From: an uncultured Opitutaceae bacterium
Lineage (GTDB): Bacteria > Verrucomicrobiota > Verrucomicrobiia > Opitutales > Opitutaceae
Direction: 5' to 3'
Assembly (NCBI GenBank): GCA_937902925.1
Contig: CALFNN010000061.1
Span: 1-50,737, forward strand
Length of the DNA: 50,737 bases
Part shown: positions 5,672-14,645 of the stretch, piece by piece
How positions within the stretch are numbered: the first letter of the stretch is position 1
How the letters are laid out: each line of letters opens with the position of its first letter
The notes under the pieces: generated by a model
Database searches by the model: none
The model's input: the letters and a program-made list of their open reading frames with translations, nothing else
Told to the model about the DNA's origin: nothing
Program-made: the position numbers and the translations under genes

Positions 5672-6235
5672 TCAGCCCCGCCGGAAAAACGCCACGGTCG
5701 GCTGCCTCGCTCCCTTGCCGAGTCGCTTCACGAGCGTCCACCCCGCGGGAAGGAGGTCGAGTTCGCCCGGCAGTTCGAAGACCACCAGGGCCTCGGGCCG
5801 CAGCGCCAGCCCCTCGGCCAGCCGCGCGAAAAGTCCCGGCGCAACCTCGGCGATGATTTTATAGGGCGGGTCGATAAAGACCAAGTCCGGCACTTCGCCT
5901 CCGCCAAAGGGTGCGGTGCGCGCGTCGGCCTGCAGCACCGTGAGACCCTGCGGCTCGCGGCCGAGACTCTTGCAGACCGCCGCAAGATTCACCCGCACGC
6001 AGGCCGCCGCCTTGGCGTTCTGCTCCACAAACACCCCGCCCGCGGCACCGCGGCTCAAGGCCTCGAGTCCATAGGCACCACTGCCCGCGAAGAGATCCAG
6101 AAAGTGCGCCCCGGACACCCTTGCTCCAAGACTCGAAAAAACCGCCTGCCGCATTCCATCGGTCGCCGGCCGGACGGCGTCGCCCTTCGGCGCCACGAGC
6201 GGAATCCCGCGGGCCCCACCGCCGCTTATGCGCAT
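5672..6235 (-). CDS. rsmD: 16S rRNA (guanine966-N2)-methyltransferase RsmD
   Basis: A 187-residue Rossmann-fold methyltransferase that modifies G966 of 16S rRNA. The N-terminus MRISGGGARGIPL and RPATDGMRQAVFSSL are typical RsmD, followed by SAM motif I LDLFAGSGAYGLEALSRGA and the catalytic FIDPPYK (D/N-PPY motif). Length matches the family. It converges on rsmE with 21 bases between stops and is divergent from the hydrolase gene that starts at 6302. Confidence 0.93.
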   Translation of the reverse strand: MRISGGGARGIPLVAPKGDAVRPATDGMRQAVFSSLGARVSGAHFLDLFAGSGAYGLEALSRGAAGGVFVEQNAKAAACVRVNLAAVCKSLGREPQGLTVLQADARTAPFGGGEVPDLVFIDPPYKIIAEVAPGLFARLAEGLALRPEALVVFELPGELDLLPAGWTLVKRLGKGARQPTVAFFRRG

Positions 6236-6301
6236 GACGGGGCCTCCTCACCGGTAATTTGCCTTGCCCCTGAAAAGGGATTCATAACGACCACGCCTGT
6301 G

Positions 6302-7258
6302 ATGACACCCCCGCTCTCCGACCACTTCAACGGGAAAACCTTTTTTCAGCCGGGCGGGGACCCAAACGGGCGCTTCAAAGACTTTCTCCGCTGGCAGTTT
6401 TCGCGCCGCGCCGCGCCGTGGCCCGATCGCGTGACGCTCCGGGCCCAAGCACCCCCGCCGAAACCACGGGGCGACGAGATCGTCGCCACATGGGTCGGGC
6501 ACGCGACCTTTCTTTTCCAGACCGCTCGGGGCAATTTCCTGACCGATCCGGTTTTCTCGGACCGGGTGAGTCCGGTGCGCTGGGCGGGCCCGCGCCGCGT
6601 GCACCCGCCGGGGCTGCTTTTCGAATCGCTGCCGCGGATCGACGCCGTCCTTTTGAGCCACGACCACTACGATCACTGCGACCTGACGACCCTGCGGCGG
6701 CTCGCCGCGACGCACGATCCCGAGTTTCTCGCGCCCTGGCGCCACCGCGACCTCCTCGCGGCCGCGGGCGCACGCAAGATTGTCGAACTCGACTGGTGGC
6801 AAACGCACGCCCTCGGCGGCGGAATTGCCGCCACCCTTGCGCCGACGAGGCACTGGACGAACCGCTTCGGGACACCGCGCAACCACCGGCTCTGGGGTGG
6901 ATTTTTTCTCGATTGTGGCGCGCGCCGTGTCTGGTTCGCCGGCGACTCGGGCTACGACAGAGACCTTTTCAAGGCGATTCGGGAGCGCTGCGGTGCGCCC
7001 GATCTCGCGTGCATTCCCATCGGCGCCTACGAGCCGCGTTGGTTCATGGCCCCGATGCACATGAACCCCGCCGAAGCCGTCCAGGCCCATCTCGACCTCG
7101 GCTCGCCGTGCAGCCTGGCAATGCACTGGGGCACCTTTCAACTGACCGACGAAGCGCGCGACGACCCGCCCAAGGCGCTCGCCGCTGCCCGGGCCGCCGC
7201 CGGCGTCGAACCGGGGGCTTTCCCCATCTTGAGTCCGGGAGAAAGTGTTGTCCGCTAG
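6302..7258 (+). CDS. Metallo-beta-lactamase-fold hydrolase (NAPE-PLD/UlaG-like)
   Basis: A 318-residue protein with the metal-binding motif H120-D-H122-Y-D124-H125 (LLSHDHYDHCD), an upstream GHATFLFQ strand and downstream APTRHW, FAGDSGYD and AMHWGTF motifs that supply the remaining metal ligands. This set is typical of the N-acyl-phosphatidylethanolamine phospholipase D-like and L-ascorbate-6-phosphate lactonase-like branch of the superfamily. The start is the ATG at 6302; an in-frame open stretch upstream overlaps rsmD and has a different composition. No signal peptide. The physiological substrate is not predictable. Confidence 0.85.
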   Translation: MTPPLSDHFNGKTFFQPGGDPNGRFKDFLRWQFSRRAAPWPDRVTLRAQAPPPKPRGDEIVATWVGHATFLFQTARGNFLTDPVFSDRVSPVRWAGPRRVHPPGLLFESLPRIDAVLLSHDHYDHCDLTTLRRLAATHDPEFLAPWRHRDLLAAAGARKIVELDWWQTHALGGGIAATLAPTRHWTNRFGTPRNHRLWGGFFLDCGARRVWFAGDSGYDRDLFKAIRERCGAPDLACIPIGAYEPRWFMAPMHMNPAEAVQAHLDLGSPCSLAMHWGTFQLTDEARDDPPKALAAARAAAGVEPGAFPILSPGESVVR

Positions 7259-7467: not shown

Positions 7468-8946
7468 ATGAAAACCCTTCGTCTCACCGCCCTCCTCGGC
7501 GTCGCCGCCGCGGCGGTGGCGACGCGCGTGGGCGCCGACGAACACGAGCGGCACACGTGGGCGCTGGGCGTCGAGCGGACCGACGACGCCGGCCAGGTCA
7601 CGTCATGGAGTGCAGCCGGACCACTGCTATTTTCGAAGCGCACGCCCGAGGGCGGAACGATCGGCGGGTTCCGGCCGTTCTGGGTGCAGACGAAAAACGC
7701 CGGCGGCGACCTGCGGGCGGCGCAGTTCCTCTATCCGGTCTTCTCTTACCGCGCCGACGGGGAGACCTATGCCTGGAGCCTCCTCGAACTCGTGAAACGC
7801 GCCGGCCGGCGCGCGGGCGCTCCCGCGCCGCGCAGCCCGCTCGAGGACGGCGAGGCCTTCGACATCTGGCCTTTCTGGTTTTCCCGCCACTCCGCCGATC
7901 CCAGGGAAAGTTACCACGCGCTGTTTCCCGTGGCCGGCACGATCAAGAGTCGCCTCGGCTACGACCGGCTGTCGTGGGCGCTCTGGCCCTTCTATTTCGA
8001 GTCGGAAAAACACGGCGCCGTGACGACGCAGACCCCGTGGCCCATCGTGCGCACGATTCACGGTGCCGCGCACGGGTTCGCGCTCTGGCCGCTCTTCGGC
8101 TGGGAGGAACGACCGGGAGTTTCGCGGGAGGAGTTCTACCTCTGGCCGCTCGGCTACAACAACACGATCGCCCCGGCCGCCGACGCCCCCGCGGGCACGC
8201 CGCCGGAGCGCGACGTGGCGGCGCTGCCGCTTTTTGCCCGCTCGACGAAACCAGGATTCGTCAACCAGGATTTCCTCTGGCCGTTCTTCGGCTATACCGA
8301 CCGCACCGCGCCGTCCACTTATCACGAGACGCGCTACCTCTGGCCGTTTCTCGTGCAGGGCCGCGGCGACGATCGTTTCGTCAATCGCTGGGGTCCCTTC
8401 TATACGCATTCCACCGTCAAAGGTCACGACAAGACCTGGGTCGCGTGGCCGCTTTTTCGCCACGAAACATGGTCGGACGAGGGACTCGCGCAGACGAAAA
8501 CCCAATTCCTGTATTTCCTCTATTGGTCGCTCCAGGAGCGCAGTAGGGCCAATCCCTCGCTCGCCCCGGCGTCGATCACGCACGTGTGGCCGCTTTTCAG
8601 CACGTGGGACAATGGCGCGGGGCGCCGGCAGGTGCAGGTCTTGAGTCCCTTCGAGGTTTTTTTCCCCGGCAACGAAAAGGTGCGCGAGGCCTGGTCGCCG
8701 CTCTTCGCCCTTTTTCGTTACGACGAGCGCGACGGCGGCCGCGAACACTTTTCGCTCCTCTGGGACCTCATCACCTGGGAGCGCCACCCGTCCGTCGGCG
8801 CCGCCGTGGTCCGCCCCCAAACCGAGCGGGTCGCCCTGGCCGGCGGGCTCGTCGGCCTGAAGCGCAACCCCGGCCAGCGGGCCTGGCGGCTCTTCTGGTT
8901 AGATTTTCCCCGAAAACACGCTAGTAGTGCGAGCCCGTCGCAGTGA
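7468..8946 (+). CDS. Exported WPF/WPL-repeat protein, first gene of the mla operon
   Basis: A 492-residue protein with a signal peptide (MKTLRLTALLGVAAAAVA, cleavage near residue 23). The mature part carries a repeated aromatic motif xLWPFzz or WPLFz, seen at residues 131-138, 171-177, 189-193, 204-210, 224-230, 269-276, 290-296 and 325-330 and again in the C-terminal third, usually followed by a charged turn and another aromatic strand. The pattern suggests repeated beta-hairpins, possibly an outer-membrane barrel or beta-propeller-like surface. I do not recognise the family. The start is ATG 7468; TTG 7453 is in frame but less likely. The stop lies one base before the mlaE start, so it is co-transcribed and probably works with the lipid transporter. 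Confidence 0.75.
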   Translation: MKTLRLTALLGVAAAAVATRVGADEHERHTWALGVERTDDAGQVTSWSAAGPLLFSKRTPEGGTIGGFRPFWVQTKNAGGDLRAAQFLYPVFSYRADGETYAWSLLELVKRAGRRAGAPAPRSPLEDGEAFDIWPFWFSRHSADPRESYHALFPVAGTIKSRLGYDRLSWALWPFYFESEKHGAVTTQTPWPIVRTIHGAAHGFALWPLFGWEERPGVSREEFYLWPLGYNNTIAPAADAPAGTPPERDVAALPLFARSTKPGFVNQDFLWPFFGYTDRTAPSTYHETRYLWPFLVQGRGDDRFVNRWGPFYTHSTVKGHDKTWVAWPLFRHETWSDEGLAQTKTQFLYFLYWSLQERSRANPSLAPASITHVWPLFSTWDNGAGRRQVQVLSPFEVFFPGNEKVREAWSPLFALFRYDERDGGREHFSLLWDLITWERHPSVGAAVVRPQTERVALAGGLVGLKRNPGQRAWRLFWLDFPRKHASSASPSQ

Positions 8947-8947
8947 A

Positions 8948-9700
8948 ATGAAGCAACTCATCCAGATTCTTGAAGGCCTCGGCAGCACGCTGCAGCTCCT
9001 GATGCGCGCGGCGTCCTACGCGGGCACCCTGCCCCGGCAAATCGGGCGTTTCGTGGAACAGTGCTACACGATCGGCTACACCACGCTGCCGATCGTGGCG
9101 ATCCTGAGTTTCTTCATCGGCAGTGTGCTCGCGCTCCAGTCCGGCCATGCCGCGGAGAATTTCGGCCCGAAGCAGTTCATCGGCCTCCTGGTCGGGCTTT
9201 CCATGGCGGCAGAATTGGGGCCGGTCATGGTTGCCGTGCTCCTCGCGGGGCGCGTCGGTTCGGCCATCGCCGCGGAGCTCGCATCGATGAAGGTCTATCA
9301 GGAAATCGATGCCCTCGAGACGATGAACATCCCGCCGGCGCGGATCCTCGTCCTGCCCCGGCTGGCCGCGATCCTCGTCATGATGCCCGTCCTCACGATC
9401 ATCGCCGACCTGGTCGGCTGGTTCGGCGGCGCGATCGTGGCAAAATACACCCACTTCATCTCGATCGAGCCGGAATCCTACTTCGCGACGATGCGGCAAT
9501 ACATGGAGTTCCGGGATGTCTGGAACGGCCTCGTGAAGGCGGAGGTGTTCGGTTTCGTCATCGTCCTTGTCTCCTGCAACATCGGGCTCAACACCCGGGG
9601 CGGCCCGCGCGAGATCGGCGCCTCGGTGACGCGCGCCGTCGTCGTTTCCCTGATCCTGATCCTGGTGCTCGATTACTTCGTCACCAAAGCCCTGATGTAA
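8948..9700 (+). CDS. mlaE: MlaE-family ABC permease for lipid transport
   Basis: A 250-residue MlaE/YrbE-type permease with about five membrane helices. The segment MAAELGPVMVAVLLAGRVGSAIAAELASM is the hallmark of the family, followed by EIDALETMNI and ARILVLPR. In Gram-negative bacteria MlaE with MlaF and MlaD forms the inner-membrane complex that moves phospholipids between membranes. The start at ATG 8948 is one base after the stop of the WPF-repeat gene and three bases separate the stop from mlaF, so the genes are tightly coupled. MlaB and MlaC homologues are not in this window. Confidence 0.93.
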   Translation: MKQLIQILEGLGSTLQLLMRAASYAGTLPRQIGRFVEQCYTIGYTTLPIVAILSFFIGSVLALQSGHAAENFGPKQFIGLLVGLSMAAELGPVMVAVLLAGRVGSAIAAELASMKVYQEIDALETMNIPPARILVLPRLAAILVMMPVLTIIADLVGWFGGAIVAKYTHFISIEPESYFATMRQYMEFRDVWNGLVKAEVFGFVIVLVSCNIGLNTRGGPREIGASVTRAVVVSLILILVLDYFVTKALM

Positions 9701-9703
9701 CCC

Positions 9704-10513
9704 ATGGCCGAAGCTCCCAGCACGACCCGCAATCCCTTTACGCACGTCGAGACGCCCGCCGTCGGCGTCGCGGTCGAGGACCTGTGCAAGAGTTTTGGCA
9801 CGTTCGAGGTGCTGAAACACGTCTCGTTCTCCGTCGCCCCGGGCGAAATCTTTGTCCTCATGGGCCCCAGCGGCTCGGGCAAGAGCGTCCTCCTGAAGCA
9901 CATCGTCGGCCTCGAACTGCCTTCGTCCGGCCGCGTGACCGTCGACAACCGCGACGCCGCCGCCGAGGAGACCCGCGAACAGGTCCGCATGGCGCTGGTC
10001 TTTCAGGCCGGAGCGCTCTTCAACTCGATGACGGTTTACGACAATCTCGCCCTTTATCCGCGCGAGCACCGGATCGCCGACGAGGCGGGCATCCGCGAAA
10101 AGGTCATGCGCGCCCTCCAGATTCTCTCCCTCGAAAACGCCGCGGAGAAATTCCCGTCCGAGCTTTCCGGCGGCATGAAGAAACGCGTGGCCATCGCGCG
10201 CGCCCTCGTCATGGAGCCGCAACTCATGCTCTACGACGAACCGACGAGCGAACTCGATCCGGTGATGTCCGCCACCATCGCCGAGATCATCGCGACCCTG
10301 AAGGACCAGTATCGCGTCACGACGATCGTCGTTTCCCACGACCGCGACCTCGCCCTGAACATTTCCGACCGGGTCGGCATCCTCATGGGCGGCGAGTTGC
10401 TGTTCCTCGGCACGCCCGCGGAACTGCGCACGCCGACCGACCCGCGCGTCGCCGACTTTCTCAACCCGAAAATCGATTTGCAGAACCCACGATTCAAAAA
10501 ACTGGAGACCTGA
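9704..10513 (+). CDS. mlaF: MlaF-family ABC ATPase
   Basis: A 269-residue ATPase of the lipid transport complex. Walker A is GPSGSGKS (residues 54-61), the Q-loop is LVFQAGALF, the ABC signature is LSGGMKKRVAIARAL and Walker B is LMLYDEPTSELDP, followed by the switch histidine in VVSHD. LSGGM and DEPTSELDP match the Mla/Ttg2A branch rather than general importers. The first 20 residues are an extra, proline/threonine-rich lead. It hydrolyses ATP to drive MlaE and MlaD. It lies three bases from mlaE and three from mlaD. Confidence 0.93.
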   Translation: MAEAPSTTRNPFTHVETPAVGVAVEDLCKSFGTFEVLKHVSFSVAPGEIFVLMGPSGSGKSVLLKHIVGLELPSSGRVTVDNRDAAAEETREQVRMALVFQAGALFNSMTVYDNLALYPREHRIADEAGIREKVMRALQILSLENAAEKFPSELSGGMKKRVAIARALVMEPQLMLYDEPTSELDPVMSATIAEIIATLKDQYRVTTIVVSHDRDLALNISDRVGILMGGELLFLGTPAELRTPTDPRVADFLNPKIDLQNPRFKKLET

Positions 10514-10516
10514 GCC

Positions 10517-11509
10517 ATGATCAACATGCAACAAACCGCCCGTGTCGGGCTATTCTTCCTCCTCGGCCTGGCCCTCATCTGGGTGACGTTCGAAACCCTG
10601 AGTGGCGGCAAGGTTTTCAAGGACAAGGGCTATCAGATCGTCGCCGGCTTCGAGAGCCTGAAGGAACTCAAGGAGGGCGACGACGTGCGGATGGCCGGCG
10701 TCAAGATCGGCACCGTCGCGAGCACCCGCCTCGCCGGGCGTCGCGCCGAGGCCGTCCTCCGCATCGATTCGGACGTCAAGATCAAGGAGGACGCCACCGC
10801 GTCGATCGTGATGTCCGGCCTCATCGGCACCAACTACATCGGCGTCGACCTCGGCTCGGCCGGCGCCGGCGACCTCCGCCCCGGCGCCGAGATCCACACC
10901 AAGGTCACGCCCGACATCAATTCGGTCATGACGCAACTCGGGTCCCTCGGCGCCAAGCTCGAGGACACGCTGGGGAGCCTCGGCACCGCGATGAACGGCA
11001 ACGGCAAGGGCCCGGGCCTGCTCCAGAAAATCGACAAACTCGTCAGCGACAATGGCGAGAATGTCACCGCCACGATGGCGAATGTCCGGCAGGTGTCGGA
11101 AAAACTCAACAAGGGCGAGGGCACGCTCGGCAAATTGATCAACGACCCCAAGCTGCACGACGACCTGGTTGCCAGCGTGGCCGAGATCAAGAGCACGGCG
11201 ACCGAGGCCAGGAATTTCGTCGCCGATGCCCAGAACATCGTCGACCAGGTGAAGGCCGGCCGGGGGACCCTCGGCGCCCTCGTCTACGACGACACGACGG
11301 GCAACAATATCAAGGTGACGGCGGCCAATCTCCGGTCGGTCTCCGACAAGCTCGCCCGCGGCGAAGGCACGCTCGGCAAACTGATCAACGACGACAGCAC
11401 CCTCCGCGACGCCCAAGCGGTGATGAAAAAGGCCAACACCGCACTCGACGGGCTCGGCGACTCCGGGCCGATCACCGCGGTCGGCATCGTCGCGAAGTCG
11501 CTCTTCTGA
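10517..11509 (+). CDS. mlaD: MlaD-like MCE-domain protein
   Basis: A 330-residue protein with one N-terminal membrane anchor (GLFFLLGLALIWVTF) and an MCE domain of about 90 residues (LKEGDDVRMAGVKIGTV, GLIGTNYIGVDLG). MCE proteins form hexamers that bind lipid in the periplasm. The C-terminal half is helical and repeats the module GEGTLGKLINDD, seen three times in variants (KGEGTLGKLINDP, GRGTLGALVYDD, RGEGTLGKLINDD), giving an extended coiled stem. That is longer than E. coli MlaD and similar to other longer MCE proteins. It is the last gene of the operon and is followed by an intrinsic terminator. Confidence 0.9.
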   Translation: MINMQQTARVGLFFLLGLALIWVTFETLSGGKVFKDKGYQIVAGFESLKELKEGDDVRMAGVKIGTVASTRLAGRRAEAVLRIDSDVKIKEDATASIVMSGLIGTNYIGVDLGSAGAGDLRPGAEIHTKVTPDINSVMTQLGSLGAKLEDTLGSLGTAMNGNGKGPGLLQKIDKLVSDNGENVTATMANVRQVSEKLNKGEGTLGKLINDPKLHDDLVASVAEIKSTATEARNFVADAQNIVDQVKAGRGTLGALVYDDTTGNNIKVTAANLRSVSDKLARGEGTLGKLINDDSTLRDAQAVMKKANTALDGLGDSGPITAVGIVAKSLF

Positions 11510-11540
11510 GGCCGCCGGAAAGCCGGGCGGGGTCTCCACG

Positions 11541-11570
11541 GAGCCGGTCGCAGGACCGGCTCTATTTTTT
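11541..11570 (+). terminator. Intrinsic terminator after mlaD
   Basis: GAGCCGGTC (11541-11549) pairs perfectly with GACCGGCTC (11554-11562) around a 4-base loop, followed by TATTTTTT. It lies 31 bases after the mlaD stop and overlaps the stop codon of the convergent gene at 11562. Confidence 0.8.
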
Positions 11571-12110
11571 CCTCGTGTAACGACCGTCGAAGGCAATCTG
11601 CCAGCTCTTCTGTCCATCGGTCGACTGCTCCCAGAGCTGCCGCACGCTCCCGTCGGGATTCGGCGTCCAGGTGATGCGCTCGACCACATGCCGGGCGCGC
11701 ACGTCGTGCTCGCCGCTCAAAACCATTTTGCCACCGGCGAGTCCGCCCGTCAGTTCGAGCACGCCGCCGCCGCTGCCGATCCAAAACTGCTGCCACCGCT
11801 GCTTCGAGCGATCAAAGGCGTTCAGGCTTTTCCCGTCGCCGCCATTCGTGCCCGCAGGACTTCCCGGCGGCGGCGCACCCTGCCAGTTTTCCAGGAGCCC
11901 GTGGCCGCCCGCGACGGATTCGATGCGACTGGTGCCGGCCAGCACTCCCTGCGGATCGCGCACCTCCCATTCACCAATCCAGAAATCGAAGTCGTGATTC
12001 ACCGCGGCCGGCGCCGGTGGGGCGATCGCCGGCGCGGTTGCGGGAGTTTGGGCGACTGTCGATACGACGCTGGCGAGGAAAAGCCCGAGGACGAGTTTGC
12101 GGGGAATCAT
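11562..12110 (-). CDS. Exported protein with DFDFWIGEWEV motif
   Basis: A 182-residue protein with a signal peptide (MIPRKLVLGLFLASVVSTVAQ) and a proline/alanine-rich linker before a domain that begins DFDFWIGEWEV and continues through ENWQGAPPPG, RWQQFWIGSGG and ERITWTPNPDGSVRQLWEQS. This is the pattern of a widespread lipocalin-like or DUF1579-like family of small secreted proteins, function unknown. It is a paralogue of the gene just upstream (12107-12634), whose stop overlaps its start by 4 bases, so the two are a translationally coupled tandem duplication. Confidence 0.7.
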   Translation of the reverse strand: MIPRKLVLGLFLASVVSTVAQTPATAPAIAPPAPAAVNHDFDFWIGEWEVRDPQGVLAGTSRIESVAGGHGLLENWQGAPPPGSPAGTNGGDGKSLNAFDRSKQRWQQFWIGSGGGVLELTGGLAGGKMVLSGEHDVRARHVVERITWTPNPDGSVRQLWEQSTDGQKSWQIAFDGRYTRKK

Positions 12111-14083: not shown

Positions 14084-14162
14084 TGAGCTCATGCTTCCAT
14101 TCGGGATAATCGGGGGCGTTAGATTCGATTATTATTCATCATCCCAATGCCTCCATCCCTCC

Positions 14163-14645
14163 ATGAAAACTTCCACCCACTGGCCACCGCGGCGCCGCCG
14201 CGCGGGCTTTACCCTCGTGGAGATCATGATCGTTGTCCTGATCATCGGTCTCCTCGCTGCCATGGCGATCCCCATGTTCGGCCGGGTTCGCGAACATACT
14301 CAGAATAGCCGCTTCGTCTCCGATCTGCGCACCTTTTCGCAGGCATTTGAAACCTATGCGATGAAGAACGGCGACTGGCCGCCGAACGCCGGCACGGGCG
14401 TCGTGCCGGCCGGCATGTCGGGCGAGATGAAAGACTCGGCTTGGACCACGCTGAAGAATTCCGTCGGCGGCCGCTGGAACTGGGACCGCAACAATTACGG
14501 CGGTGCTGCCGTGATCTCCGTGGCCAATGCGACCGCGTCCGATGCGCAAATGACTGCAATCGACGCCCAAATCGACGATGGCGATCTGAGCACGGGAAAC
14601 TTTCAAAAGGTCAGCAACCGCTTCTGCTATATTCTGGAGCACTAG
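14163..14645 (+). CDS. Prepilin-like protein (type IV pilin / type II pseudopilin class)
   Basis: A 160-residue protein with a classical prepilin leader: a basic stretch (WPPRRRRAG), cleavage between G15 and F16, then FTLVEIMIVVLIIGLLAAMAIPMF, with E20 as the conserved glutamate at mature position 5. The start is the ATG at 14163; an upstream in-frame extension lacks leader character. The C-terminal domain (WDRNNYGGAAVISV, NRFCYILEH) is short and not recognised. No pilus assembly or secretion genes are adjacent. Such orphan prepilins are frequent in Opitutaceae-like genomes; processing would need a prepilin peptidase encoded elsewhere. Confidence 0.85.
   Translation: MKTSTHWPPRRRRAGFTLVEIMIVVLIIGLLAAMAIPMFGRVREHTQNSRFVSDLRTFSQAFETYAMKNGDWPPNAGTGVVPAGMSGEMKDSAWTTLKNSVGGRWNWDRNNYGGAAVISVANATASDAQMTAIDAQIDDGDLSTGNFQKVSNRFCYILEH

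Follow-up and report, generated by a model that had tools for sequence, protein, structure and literature searches.

In Escherichia coli, the Mla system comprises MlaA-OmpC and MlaC together with MlaFEDB. Many diderm bacteria possess MlaEFD without MlaA and MlaC. For these, a 2023 survey proposes that a long MlaD spans the envelope unaided, in some lineages by means of a C-terminal barrel, and reports that no such barrel was found in the MlaD proteins of the PVC group (PMC10665443). Our inference from that survey is that the contact between MlaEFD and the outer membrane is unexplained in PVC bacteria, because the MlaD barrel is missing there (PMC10665443). A further variant, Mpc (MpcEFDA) of Brucella, has been described as a chimeric Mla-Pqi system (PMC12436622). 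Here we describe an operon in which mlaE, mlaF and a long form of mlaD are preceded by the gene for an exported protein with Trp-Pro-Phe (WPF) repeats, of which we found no report in the literature searched. This WPF protein is probably the hitherto unknown outer end of the transporter in Verrucomicrobiota.

A four-gene operon headed by the WPF gene

The window, that is, the whole stretch of 50,737 nucleotides analysed here, comes from an uncultured Opitutaceae bacterium (GenBank assembly GCA_937902925.1, contig CALFNN010000061.1). It contains the MlaEFD core of an Mla/MCE lipid ABC transporter, with permease, ATPase and MCE protein in one operon ordered WPF, mlaE, mlaF and mlaD and followed by a terminator-like hairpin (Table 1). 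The initial annotation had placed the WPF gene one base ahead of mlaE, and the coordinates agree, with the TGA of the former at 8944-8946 and the ATG of the latter at 8948; the mlaE reading frame is also open from a GTG at 8927. Between positions 7000 and 12500, 10 terminator-like sites were found (5.2 expected), among which the hairpin downstream of mlaD ranks first both in stem length and in the quality of its T run. The same interval yielded no sigma-70-type promoter pattern, and a search for ribosome-binding patterns at the operon performed no better than chance.

Table 1 Features of the WPF-mlaEFD operon (window coordinates)
Feature	Position	Strand	Basis or remark
WPF-repeat exported protein gene, 492 aa	7468..8946	+	operon gene 1; ORF translation
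Stretch holding nine WP[FLI] motifs	7867..8595	+	residues 134-376
mlaE, lipid ABC transporter permease	8948..9700	+	PF02405 E 3e-76; TIGR00056 above cut-off
mlaF, ATPase	9704..10513	+	PF00005 (ABC_tran) E 8e-35; between mlaE and mlaD
mlaD long form, 330 aa	10517..11509	+	PF02470 E 1e-16
MlaD C-terminal hydrophobic tail PITAVGIVAKSLF, proposed WPF docking peptide	11468..11506	+	tail-pattern counts
Terminator-like hairpin 3' of mlaD	11540..11573	+	10-pair stem, T run

The reading frame and a Sec-like signal peptide at about residues 1-23 uphold the earlier description of a secreted 492-residue protein; this signal, like all signal peptides and lipoboxes reported here, was called by eye. The WPF protein contains nine WP[FLI] motifs (mean of 0.35 and maximum of 6 in 10,000 shuffles) and 11 motifs of the form [WLF]P[FLIYV] (mean of 2.1 and maximum of 9 in 10,000 shuffles). 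The claim of at least a dozen motifs holds with the loose pattern xP[FLIV], of which 17 were counted by eye, but not with these stricter forms. A chance motif or artefact is ruled out by the shuffles and by the 45-68% identity across 80 loci on named contigs. At E <= 0.1, the protein matched no Pfam or NCBIfam family, the Pfam models of MlaA (PF04333) and MlaC (PF05494) included, and its best match among PDB sequences was no better than E 0.77; three distant homologues likewise matched no Pfam family at E <= 0.01.

The MlaD of the window consists of a membrane helix, an MCE domain and a helical extension. Its AlphaFold2 monomer model (mean pLDDT 61.7, about 38-55 in the C-terminal half) predicts only helices beyond the MCE domain and no C-terminal barrel.

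Genomic linkage and alternation with MlaA and MlaC

Homologues of the WPF protein mostly lie directly before mlaE, as expected had they been dedicated to mla genes rather than scattered: this is the case in 28 of 30 near loci, counting that of the window (the other two, L027 and L029, show no mlaE within the stretch examined), in all 80 loci from Verrucomicrobiota on named contigs (the best 80 of 161 relatives) and in 45 of 56 distant loci, two more being cut by contig ends. The remaining nine distant homologues are not beside mlaE. These distant loci were hand-picked rather than random, the best matches being taken first, followed by weaker matches and by cases with MlaA, and two of them (L157 and L158) belong to one genome. 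The search beyond the phylum was limited to the single named-contig scan; judged by title, the best 80 of its 161 relatives were all Verrucomicrobiota. One genome (G238) carries two WPF genes and one MlaE. The gene upstream of WPF varies, encoding a beta-lactamase-fold hydrolase in some loci and being an rsmD-like gene on the opposite strand in others, whereas the downstream gene is constant; together with the occurrence of tailed MlaD proteins where WPF is unlinked (below), this led us to reject general synteny, with WPF as a mere passenger. One near locus (L022) joins WPF, without about its last 45 residues, to MlaE in one reading frame; this was not used as proof of contact, because a fusion of a periplasmic protein to the MlaE N terminus is topologically implausible and the genome is a draft.

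The genome of the window, which is 95% complete, has no match to MlaA (PF04333) or MlaC (PF05494), as the initial annotation had supposed for this lineage. Across 57 relatives, 31 have WPF only, 15 MlaA/C only, one both and 10 neither, and the 387 genomes of the phylum divide into 152 with WPF only, 133 with MlaA only, 19 with both and 83 with neither (Fisher p for WPF versus MlaA, 1.8e-6 and 9e-26, respectively). These values overstate the case because the genomes are related; among 20 order-level genomes outside the family, the alternation gives p 0.13. The family of the window itself amounts to a natural exchange experiment, with the WPF operon in some genomes and an MlaC/A operon in others. 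Four of the 19 genomes with both were inspected: two (G220 and G384) carry a second operon of the MlaC/A type, and in the other two (G314 and G211) MlaA occurs without a recognised mlaEFD adjoining it. As for the 10 relatives with neither, four of which are less than 90% complete, eight have only an MlaE with a longer frame (368-405 aa) and two have no MlaE match, so that in none of the 10 does a WPF-type mlaE lack WPF. No hidden WPF gene, sought as an ORF with more than three motifs in 3.2-3.6 kb around MlaE, was found in those eight. Judging by frame length only, their MlaE is of the same type as the second MlaE in the genome of the window.

The alternation extends to MlaD. Frames accompanying WPF have a median of 331 aa in 74 near loci and 330.5 aa in 42 distant ones, as against 147-183 aa in 18 of 19 recognised MlaA-linked operons. 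Long MlaD also occurs without WPF in four loci (L162, L166, L168 and L172), where no WPF-like protein was present in the ORF lists around mlaE. A hydrophobic MlaD tail (P-I-T...F at the carboxy end) was counted in 116 of 119 WPF operons versus none of 51 operons without WPF, two rows having been moved by hand, and each of nine further genomes, eight with unlinked WPF, has one MlaD with a similar tail. Common descent of these MlaD proteins, rather than docking, could also account for the tail. In the MlaE tree, the MlaC/A type forms one clade (100/98) and the WPF types fall elsewhere, the near and distant WPF-linked clades not being shown as one.

Predicted structure and possible roles of the WPF protein

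The AlphaFold2 model of the WPF protein (mean pLDDT 88.6) is all-beta, with about 43 short strands. The strands are joined by hydrophobic WPF turns and polar turns in alternation, and this spacing of the motifs lends support to the repeated beta-hairpins read from the sequence at the outset. No close solved fold was found for the model with Foldseek, VIA or a viral structure library, and with it no fold already assigned to an unrelated function, which would have told against the proposal. Among the best 50 of 689 Foldseek rows, TM-scores reached at most 0.24; a beta-propeller was rejected, since the top rows are WD40-type proteins and teneurins but query-normalised TM across the 50 rows was only 0.10-0.16 and rmsd at least 13 A. 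The best VIA rows for single-layer sheets were TCP10 (Z 8.6), OspA (8.3) and MORN1 (7.1), with rmsd of 13-19 A, and VIA itself notes that a Z of 7-8 is common for models lacking a clear match. Matches in the viral library were weak, and several were to MORN-repeat proteins. The single-layer sheets of OspA, CPAP TCP10 and MORN proteins resemble the WPF model in their local short antiparallel hairpins (VIA Z 7.1-8.6), but neither a common global fold nor a sequence link has been shown.

We propose, with a probability of roughly 0.65, that the WPF protein serves a four-component phospholipid transporter, WPF-MlaE-MlaF-MlaD, as its partner on the outer-membrane side (or in the periplasm), where it replaces MlaA and MlaC. 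The operon structure, the conserved linkage, the alternation with MlaA and MlaC, the long MlaD and the co-occurrence of its tail with WPF are observed directly. The initial annotation had suggested that a lineage devoid of MlaA and MlaC might have in this protein its missing partner in the outer membrane or periplasm, and this suggestion gains support from the linkage, the absence of an assigned fold, the alternation, the change in MlaD length and the restriction of the tail to MlaD proteins that accompany WPF; localisation at the outer membrane, docking and lipid contact are inferred. Under this model, MlaEF would act as the ATP-driven permease of the inner membrane, and six long MlaD chains would form, by analogy with known MCE proteins, an MCE ring and a helical needle across the periplasm. 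At the tip of this needle, the six hydrophobic tails may bind to the WPF protein or insert into it. A row of WPF turns, supplemented in some relatives by a lipid anchor, would keep this protein at the outer membrane, where it would hand phospholipids over between membrane and needle, in one direction or the other, making MlaA and the shuttle MlaC dispensable. A more specific version, which we offer only tentatively and consider doubtful as it stands, is that the protein represents a new kind of fold for lipid transport: a single-layer ribbon of great length, built from about 40 short antiparallel strands and edged on one side by a continuous row of Trp-Pro-Phe turns that are embedded in the inner leaflet of the outer membrane or line a lipid path, with the six MlaD tails docked on the ribbon.

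Three other explanations can be envisioned. The WPF protein might be a soluble periplasmic lipid carrier or conduit, functionally an MlaC, needed at the tip of the long MlaD needle. The plain Sec-type signals of the window protein and its near relatives fit such a carrier, as do the predicted strands, which at 4-8 residues are short, and which are polar on average, unlike classical transmembrane strands. We nonetheless regard it as unlikely: a lipobox lacking Asp after the Cys occurs in 13 of 56 distant homologues, which points to a membrane anchor, and the aromatic turn row suits a membrane interface. A loose lipobox pattern also occurs in 16 of 105 near WPF proteins, matches that were discounted because the Cys lies inside a hydrophobic stretch. 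The same short polar strands count against an integral outer-membrane beta-barrel standing in for OmpC of MlaA-OmpC or for the C-terminal barrel of Veillonella MlaD, as does the end of the chain, a variable low-confidence tail whose last residue is not aromatic. The all-beta model with 43 strands would suit a barrel, and porin, VDAC, TOM-complex and LptD chains do appear in the VIA list at Z 5.3-6.5, but the single-layer sheets of TCP10, OspA and MORN1 rank above them, even if such small differences in Z mean little; a barrel seems to us highly improbable.

We give least credence to an assembly factor or regulator of MlaEFD, or a merely co-expressed envelope protein with a separate job. Such a role is not contradicted by any biochemical data, there being none on the WPF protein, and the nine unlinked distant homologues would accord with it, but it leaves unexpected the alternation with MlaA and MlaC, the change in MlaD length and the presence of the tail even where WPF is unlinked.

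Comparison with known transporters

The proposed WPF-MlaEFD transporter shares with the E. coli Mla system an inner-membrane core identical in kind. It differs in the lack of any sequence match to MlaA or MlaC, in its long rather than short MlaD and in the separate clade of its MlaE, and its operon is found in related genomes where the MlaC/A operon is absent. In E. coli PqiABC, a collar encoded in the same operon, the PqiC octamer, is likewise proposed to fasten the C-terminal part of an MCE needle to the outer membrane, but PqiB has three MCE domains and PqiC is much shorter (construct residues 1-186, versus 492 residues for WPF) and of mixed helix and sheet (PMC10897342). Also setting WPF apart from PqiC-type lipoproteins are its lack of a Pfam match (E <= 0.1) and, by eye, of a lipobox in the window protein.

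Brucella Mpc combines an MlaEFD-like core and a long needle-like MlaD with an exported partner from the same operon, proposed as a needle cap at the outer membrane, and no MlaA-like protein or MlaC is reported there; MpcA, however, is a PqiC-homologous lipoprotein encoded by the last gene, whereas WPF has no Pfam match, an all-beta model and the first position (PMC12436622). MlaEFD of Veillonella parvula also has a long MlaD, no MlaA or MlaC and a proposed role as an envelope bridge, but there the outer-membrane end is the beta-barrel domain of MlaD itself (PMC10665443). The MlaD of the window, by contrast, has a tail of 13 residues at its end, and a separate protein would make up the outer part. 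Should the ribbon reading prove true, the outer ends of MCE transporters would come in four architectures, the other three being MlaA/MlaC, PqiC and the MlaD barrel. Given a dedicated partner in one large phylum that probably docks on a short MlaD tail, the question of how such transporters contact the outer membrane becomes testable.

Conservation of the WPF operon

The window corresponds to contig C61 of a 6.0-Mb genome in which a single copy of the gene for the exported WP[FLI]-repeat protein (hereafter the WPF protein) was found, as the first gene of an operon with mlaE, mlaF and mlaD (see the table). The protein contains nine WP[FLI] motifs, against a mean of 0.35 and a maximum of 6 in 10,000 shuffles. 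Neither Pfam nor NCBIfam has a family matching it at E <= 0.1, PDB sequences gave no match below E 0.77, and a Pfam scan of three of its divergent homologues from elsewhere in the phylum ('distant' WPF proteins) likewise returned no match.

Features of the WPF operon and its surroundings in the window
Feature	Position	Strand	Remark
rsmD-like gene	5672-6235	-	PF03602; upstream of the WPF operon
Beta-lactamase-fold hydrolase	5672-7258 region		PF12706; 529-aa ORF, first part opposite the rsmD-like gene; start probably downstream of this overlap
WPF protein gene	7468-8946	+	ORF of 492 aa, Sec-like start
mlaE	8948-9700	+	one base after the WPF ORF
mlaF	9704-10513	+	after mlaE
mlaD	10517-11509	+	after mlaF
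Hairpin with T run	from 11540		after mlaD
Type IV pilin / GspG-like pseudopilin, N-terminus	14091-14645		PF07963, E 2e-8

WPF homologues (33-68% identity) are present in 32 of 57 relatives, and mlaE is the next gene on the same strand in 28 of the 30 fetched loci closely related to the window operon ('near' loci, the window locus counted); no mlaE was detected in the fetched stretches of the remaining two, L027 and L029, profile search included. The genome_contigs scan yielded 161 stretches encoding a WPF relative. In the best 80 of these, mlaE follows without exception (80/80), as do mlaF and mlaD, save where a contig end cuts the operon (three without mlaF and four without mlaD). Across 387 Verrucomicrobiota genomes, profile searches recovered the WPF family in 171 and MlaE in 359. 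Among 56 distant WPF matches that we selected for fetching, the gene lies directly before mlaE in 45, reaches a contig end in two (L151 and L155) and is located away from mlaE in nine (L157-L160, L195, L212, L220, L221 and L227). Two near loci are irregular. In L022 (1423-3480), a single open frame joins WPF and MlaE with the end of WPF missing, and a true fusion or a draft-genome deletion remains undecided. The WPF gene of L027 (1363-2538), close to a frame whose start resembles that of rsmD, has an internal stop and is apparently a remnant in decay.

WPF alternating with MlaA/MlaC; two operon types

MlaA (PF04333) and MlaC (PF05494), the usual outer-membrane and periplasmic partners of Mla, occur in the same 16 of the 57 relatives. 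Of these relatives, 31 encode WPF only, 15 MlaA only, one both and 10 neither (Fisher p = 1.8e-6); the corresponding counts are 25, 10, 1 and 1 in the window's own family (n = 37; p = 3e-7), and 152, 133, 19 and 83 in the 387 Verrucomicrobiota genomes (p = 9e-26). Kinship is ignored in these values, which are too strong because related genomes are taken as independent; with the window's family left aside, the 20 remaining order-level genomes give p = 0.13. The sole relative with both (G023) is a 200-contig draft that contains an mlaC/A-type operon and, on a separate contig and cut by its end, a WPF-mlaE stretch. Of the 10 genomes devoid of both, eight have only one MlaE, encoded in a 368-405-aa frame, and no MlaE match was found in the other two. 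Since only long-frame MlaE or none is present, these genomes, as far as seen, lack the whole WPF-type operon and not merely WPF. The second MlaE copy of the window genome (contig C105) likewise has a longer, 419-aa frame. MlaE in such longer frames, of approximately 370-420 aa, was observed at L183 (5560-6816; the second copy of the window genome) and at L271-L278, the likeness resting on frame length only; at L183, the first ~200 residues match no Pfam family, and this MlaE is accompanied by a separate mlaF and by a long MlaD with a polar tail end.

We looked at 23 stretches around MlaA sites, of which 19 contained recognisable mlaE, mlaF and mlaD genes. The MlaD frame measured 147-183 aa in 18 of these (the exception, L236, was read as a 497-aa nested frame); no mlaEFD was recognised at L233, L240, L245 and L246. 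At L231, the neighbouring mlaD, mlaC and mlaA were confirmed by Pfam. MlaD frames of WPF operons have medians of 331 aa (74 near loci) and 330.5 aa (42 distant loci). In a tree of 97 MlaE proteins, from which a length filter had removed two of 43 distant rows, MlaC/A-type proteins share a single clade (support 100/98), near WPF-type proteins fall with L141 into a second (100/99), and a third (100/100) comprises 40 distant WPF-type proteins; the tree does not show the two WPF-linked clades joining into one. Many MlaA domains among the 387-genome matches (families f35, f40, f51 and others) belong to open frames spanning 600-880 aa, a length well above that of MlaA alone, and are perhaps fused to another domain.

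Proteobacteria-like mlaEFD operons, with a short MlaD beside MlaC and MlaA, occur in the window's family and other Verrucomicrobiota genomes (L184, L186, L187 and L231-L250), possibly via horizontal transfer. Section 9 of PMC10665443 describes short MlaD as confined to Proteobacteria, and the operons seen here add to the picture drawn there.

A carboxy-terminal MlaD tail accompanies WPF

The last residue is Phe or Leu in all 117 WPF-linked MlaDs found by script (74 near and 43 further, the latter including the window and near locus L230), of which 114 terminate in P[IVLA][TSNV]x(8-9)[FL] (not L156, L223 and L224). Two of the 53 rows initially grouped as lacking WPF, L190 and L208, were WPF loci missed by the script; both MlaDs are tailed, and moving them brings the pattern to 116 of 119 WPF-linked MlaDs and 0 of 51 MlaDs of operons without WPF. 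The 51 include 19 short MlaDs as well as second-system MlaDs from WPF-bearing genomes (for example, L183 of the window genome). They cannot be taken as independent, since L180 and L248 represent the same place and close kinship links several rows.

We also searched PF02470 in nine genomes, eight with an unlinked WPF gene and, in addition, G368, which belongs to the same genus as one of the eight and is of untested linkage. Among 20 matches, a long MlaD with a similar tail was present in all nine genomes, and the other MCE proteins listed have different endings. Five tails fit the pattern and four only loosely, with Thr for Pro in G238, G154 and G181 (as in L156) and Phe at the third place in G356. 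Since a tailed MlaD is present where WPF is unlinked, the co-occurrence of tail and WPF is, among these predicted proteins, independent of gene order.

Predicted fold, placement and proposed mechanism

The AlphaFold2 model of the WPF protein (65 sequences; mean pLDDT 88.6, pTM 0.73) contains 43 strands of 4-8 residues; past the signal, helix is confined to short stretches, chiefly at 394-413. On the interfacial scale used, the W/L/x-P-F/L turns score -0.13 to 0.78, most above 0.25, and the opposite turns mostly -0.26 to -1.1, with exceptions such as +0.46 after strand 14; the two kinds alternate along the model. Judging from strand and turn pattern rather than from coordinates, we interpret the model as a meandering chain of about 20 hairpins whose WPF turns line one edge. 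Foldseek against the PDB gave no global match (TM-score <= 0.24 among the 50 matches listed of 689). VIA-align ranked single-layer sheets first (CPAP TCP10, Z 8.6; OspA, 8.3; MORN1, 7.1), closely followed by ApoB (7.1) and porins (up to 6.5), all with large rmsd and at Z values that the tool warns are common. The low-confidence model of the window MlaD (mean pLDDT 61.7) shows a membrane helix followed by an MCE domain and further helices, and contains no barrel.

By eye, the signals of near WPF homologues are of the plain Sec type; matches to a loose lipobox pattern in 16 of 105 fall inside the hydrophobic stretch and were discounted. A lipobox at the signal end with a non-Asp residue after the Cys was seen, also by eye, in 13 of the 56 distant homologues (L147, L149, L152, L154, L156, L157, L158, L192, L194, L195, L199, L201 and L207). 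In E. coli, a residue other than Asp at this position directs lipoproteins to the outer membrane, and by this rule that placement is favoured for the 13.

We propose a needle of six long MlaD chains, as inferred from known MCE proteins, with its six hydrophobic tails expected to contact WPF at the outer membrane. Such an arrangement would dispense with MlaA and MlaC, which accompany short MlaD in the alternative kind of operon. Among the papers listed in our searches on Mla/MCE, on MlaE/MlaD in Verrucomicrobiota and on single-layer sheets in lipid transport, we found no report of a WPF-type protein. PMC10665443, the sole article among them on Mla in this group, makes no mention of one in its accessible part, where PVC-group MlaD is described as lacking a barrel and room is left for as yet unidentified proteins aiding barrel folding. 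Comparative genomics lends good support to the WPF protein as a new MlaEFD partner that is widespread in Verrucomicrobiota; its exact place and action are inferred. It has no sequence relation in Pfam to PqiC or MpcA, yet the MlaD-WPF pair would work like the proposed PqiB-PqiC (PMC10897342) and Brucella MpcD-MpcA (PMC12436622) pairs.
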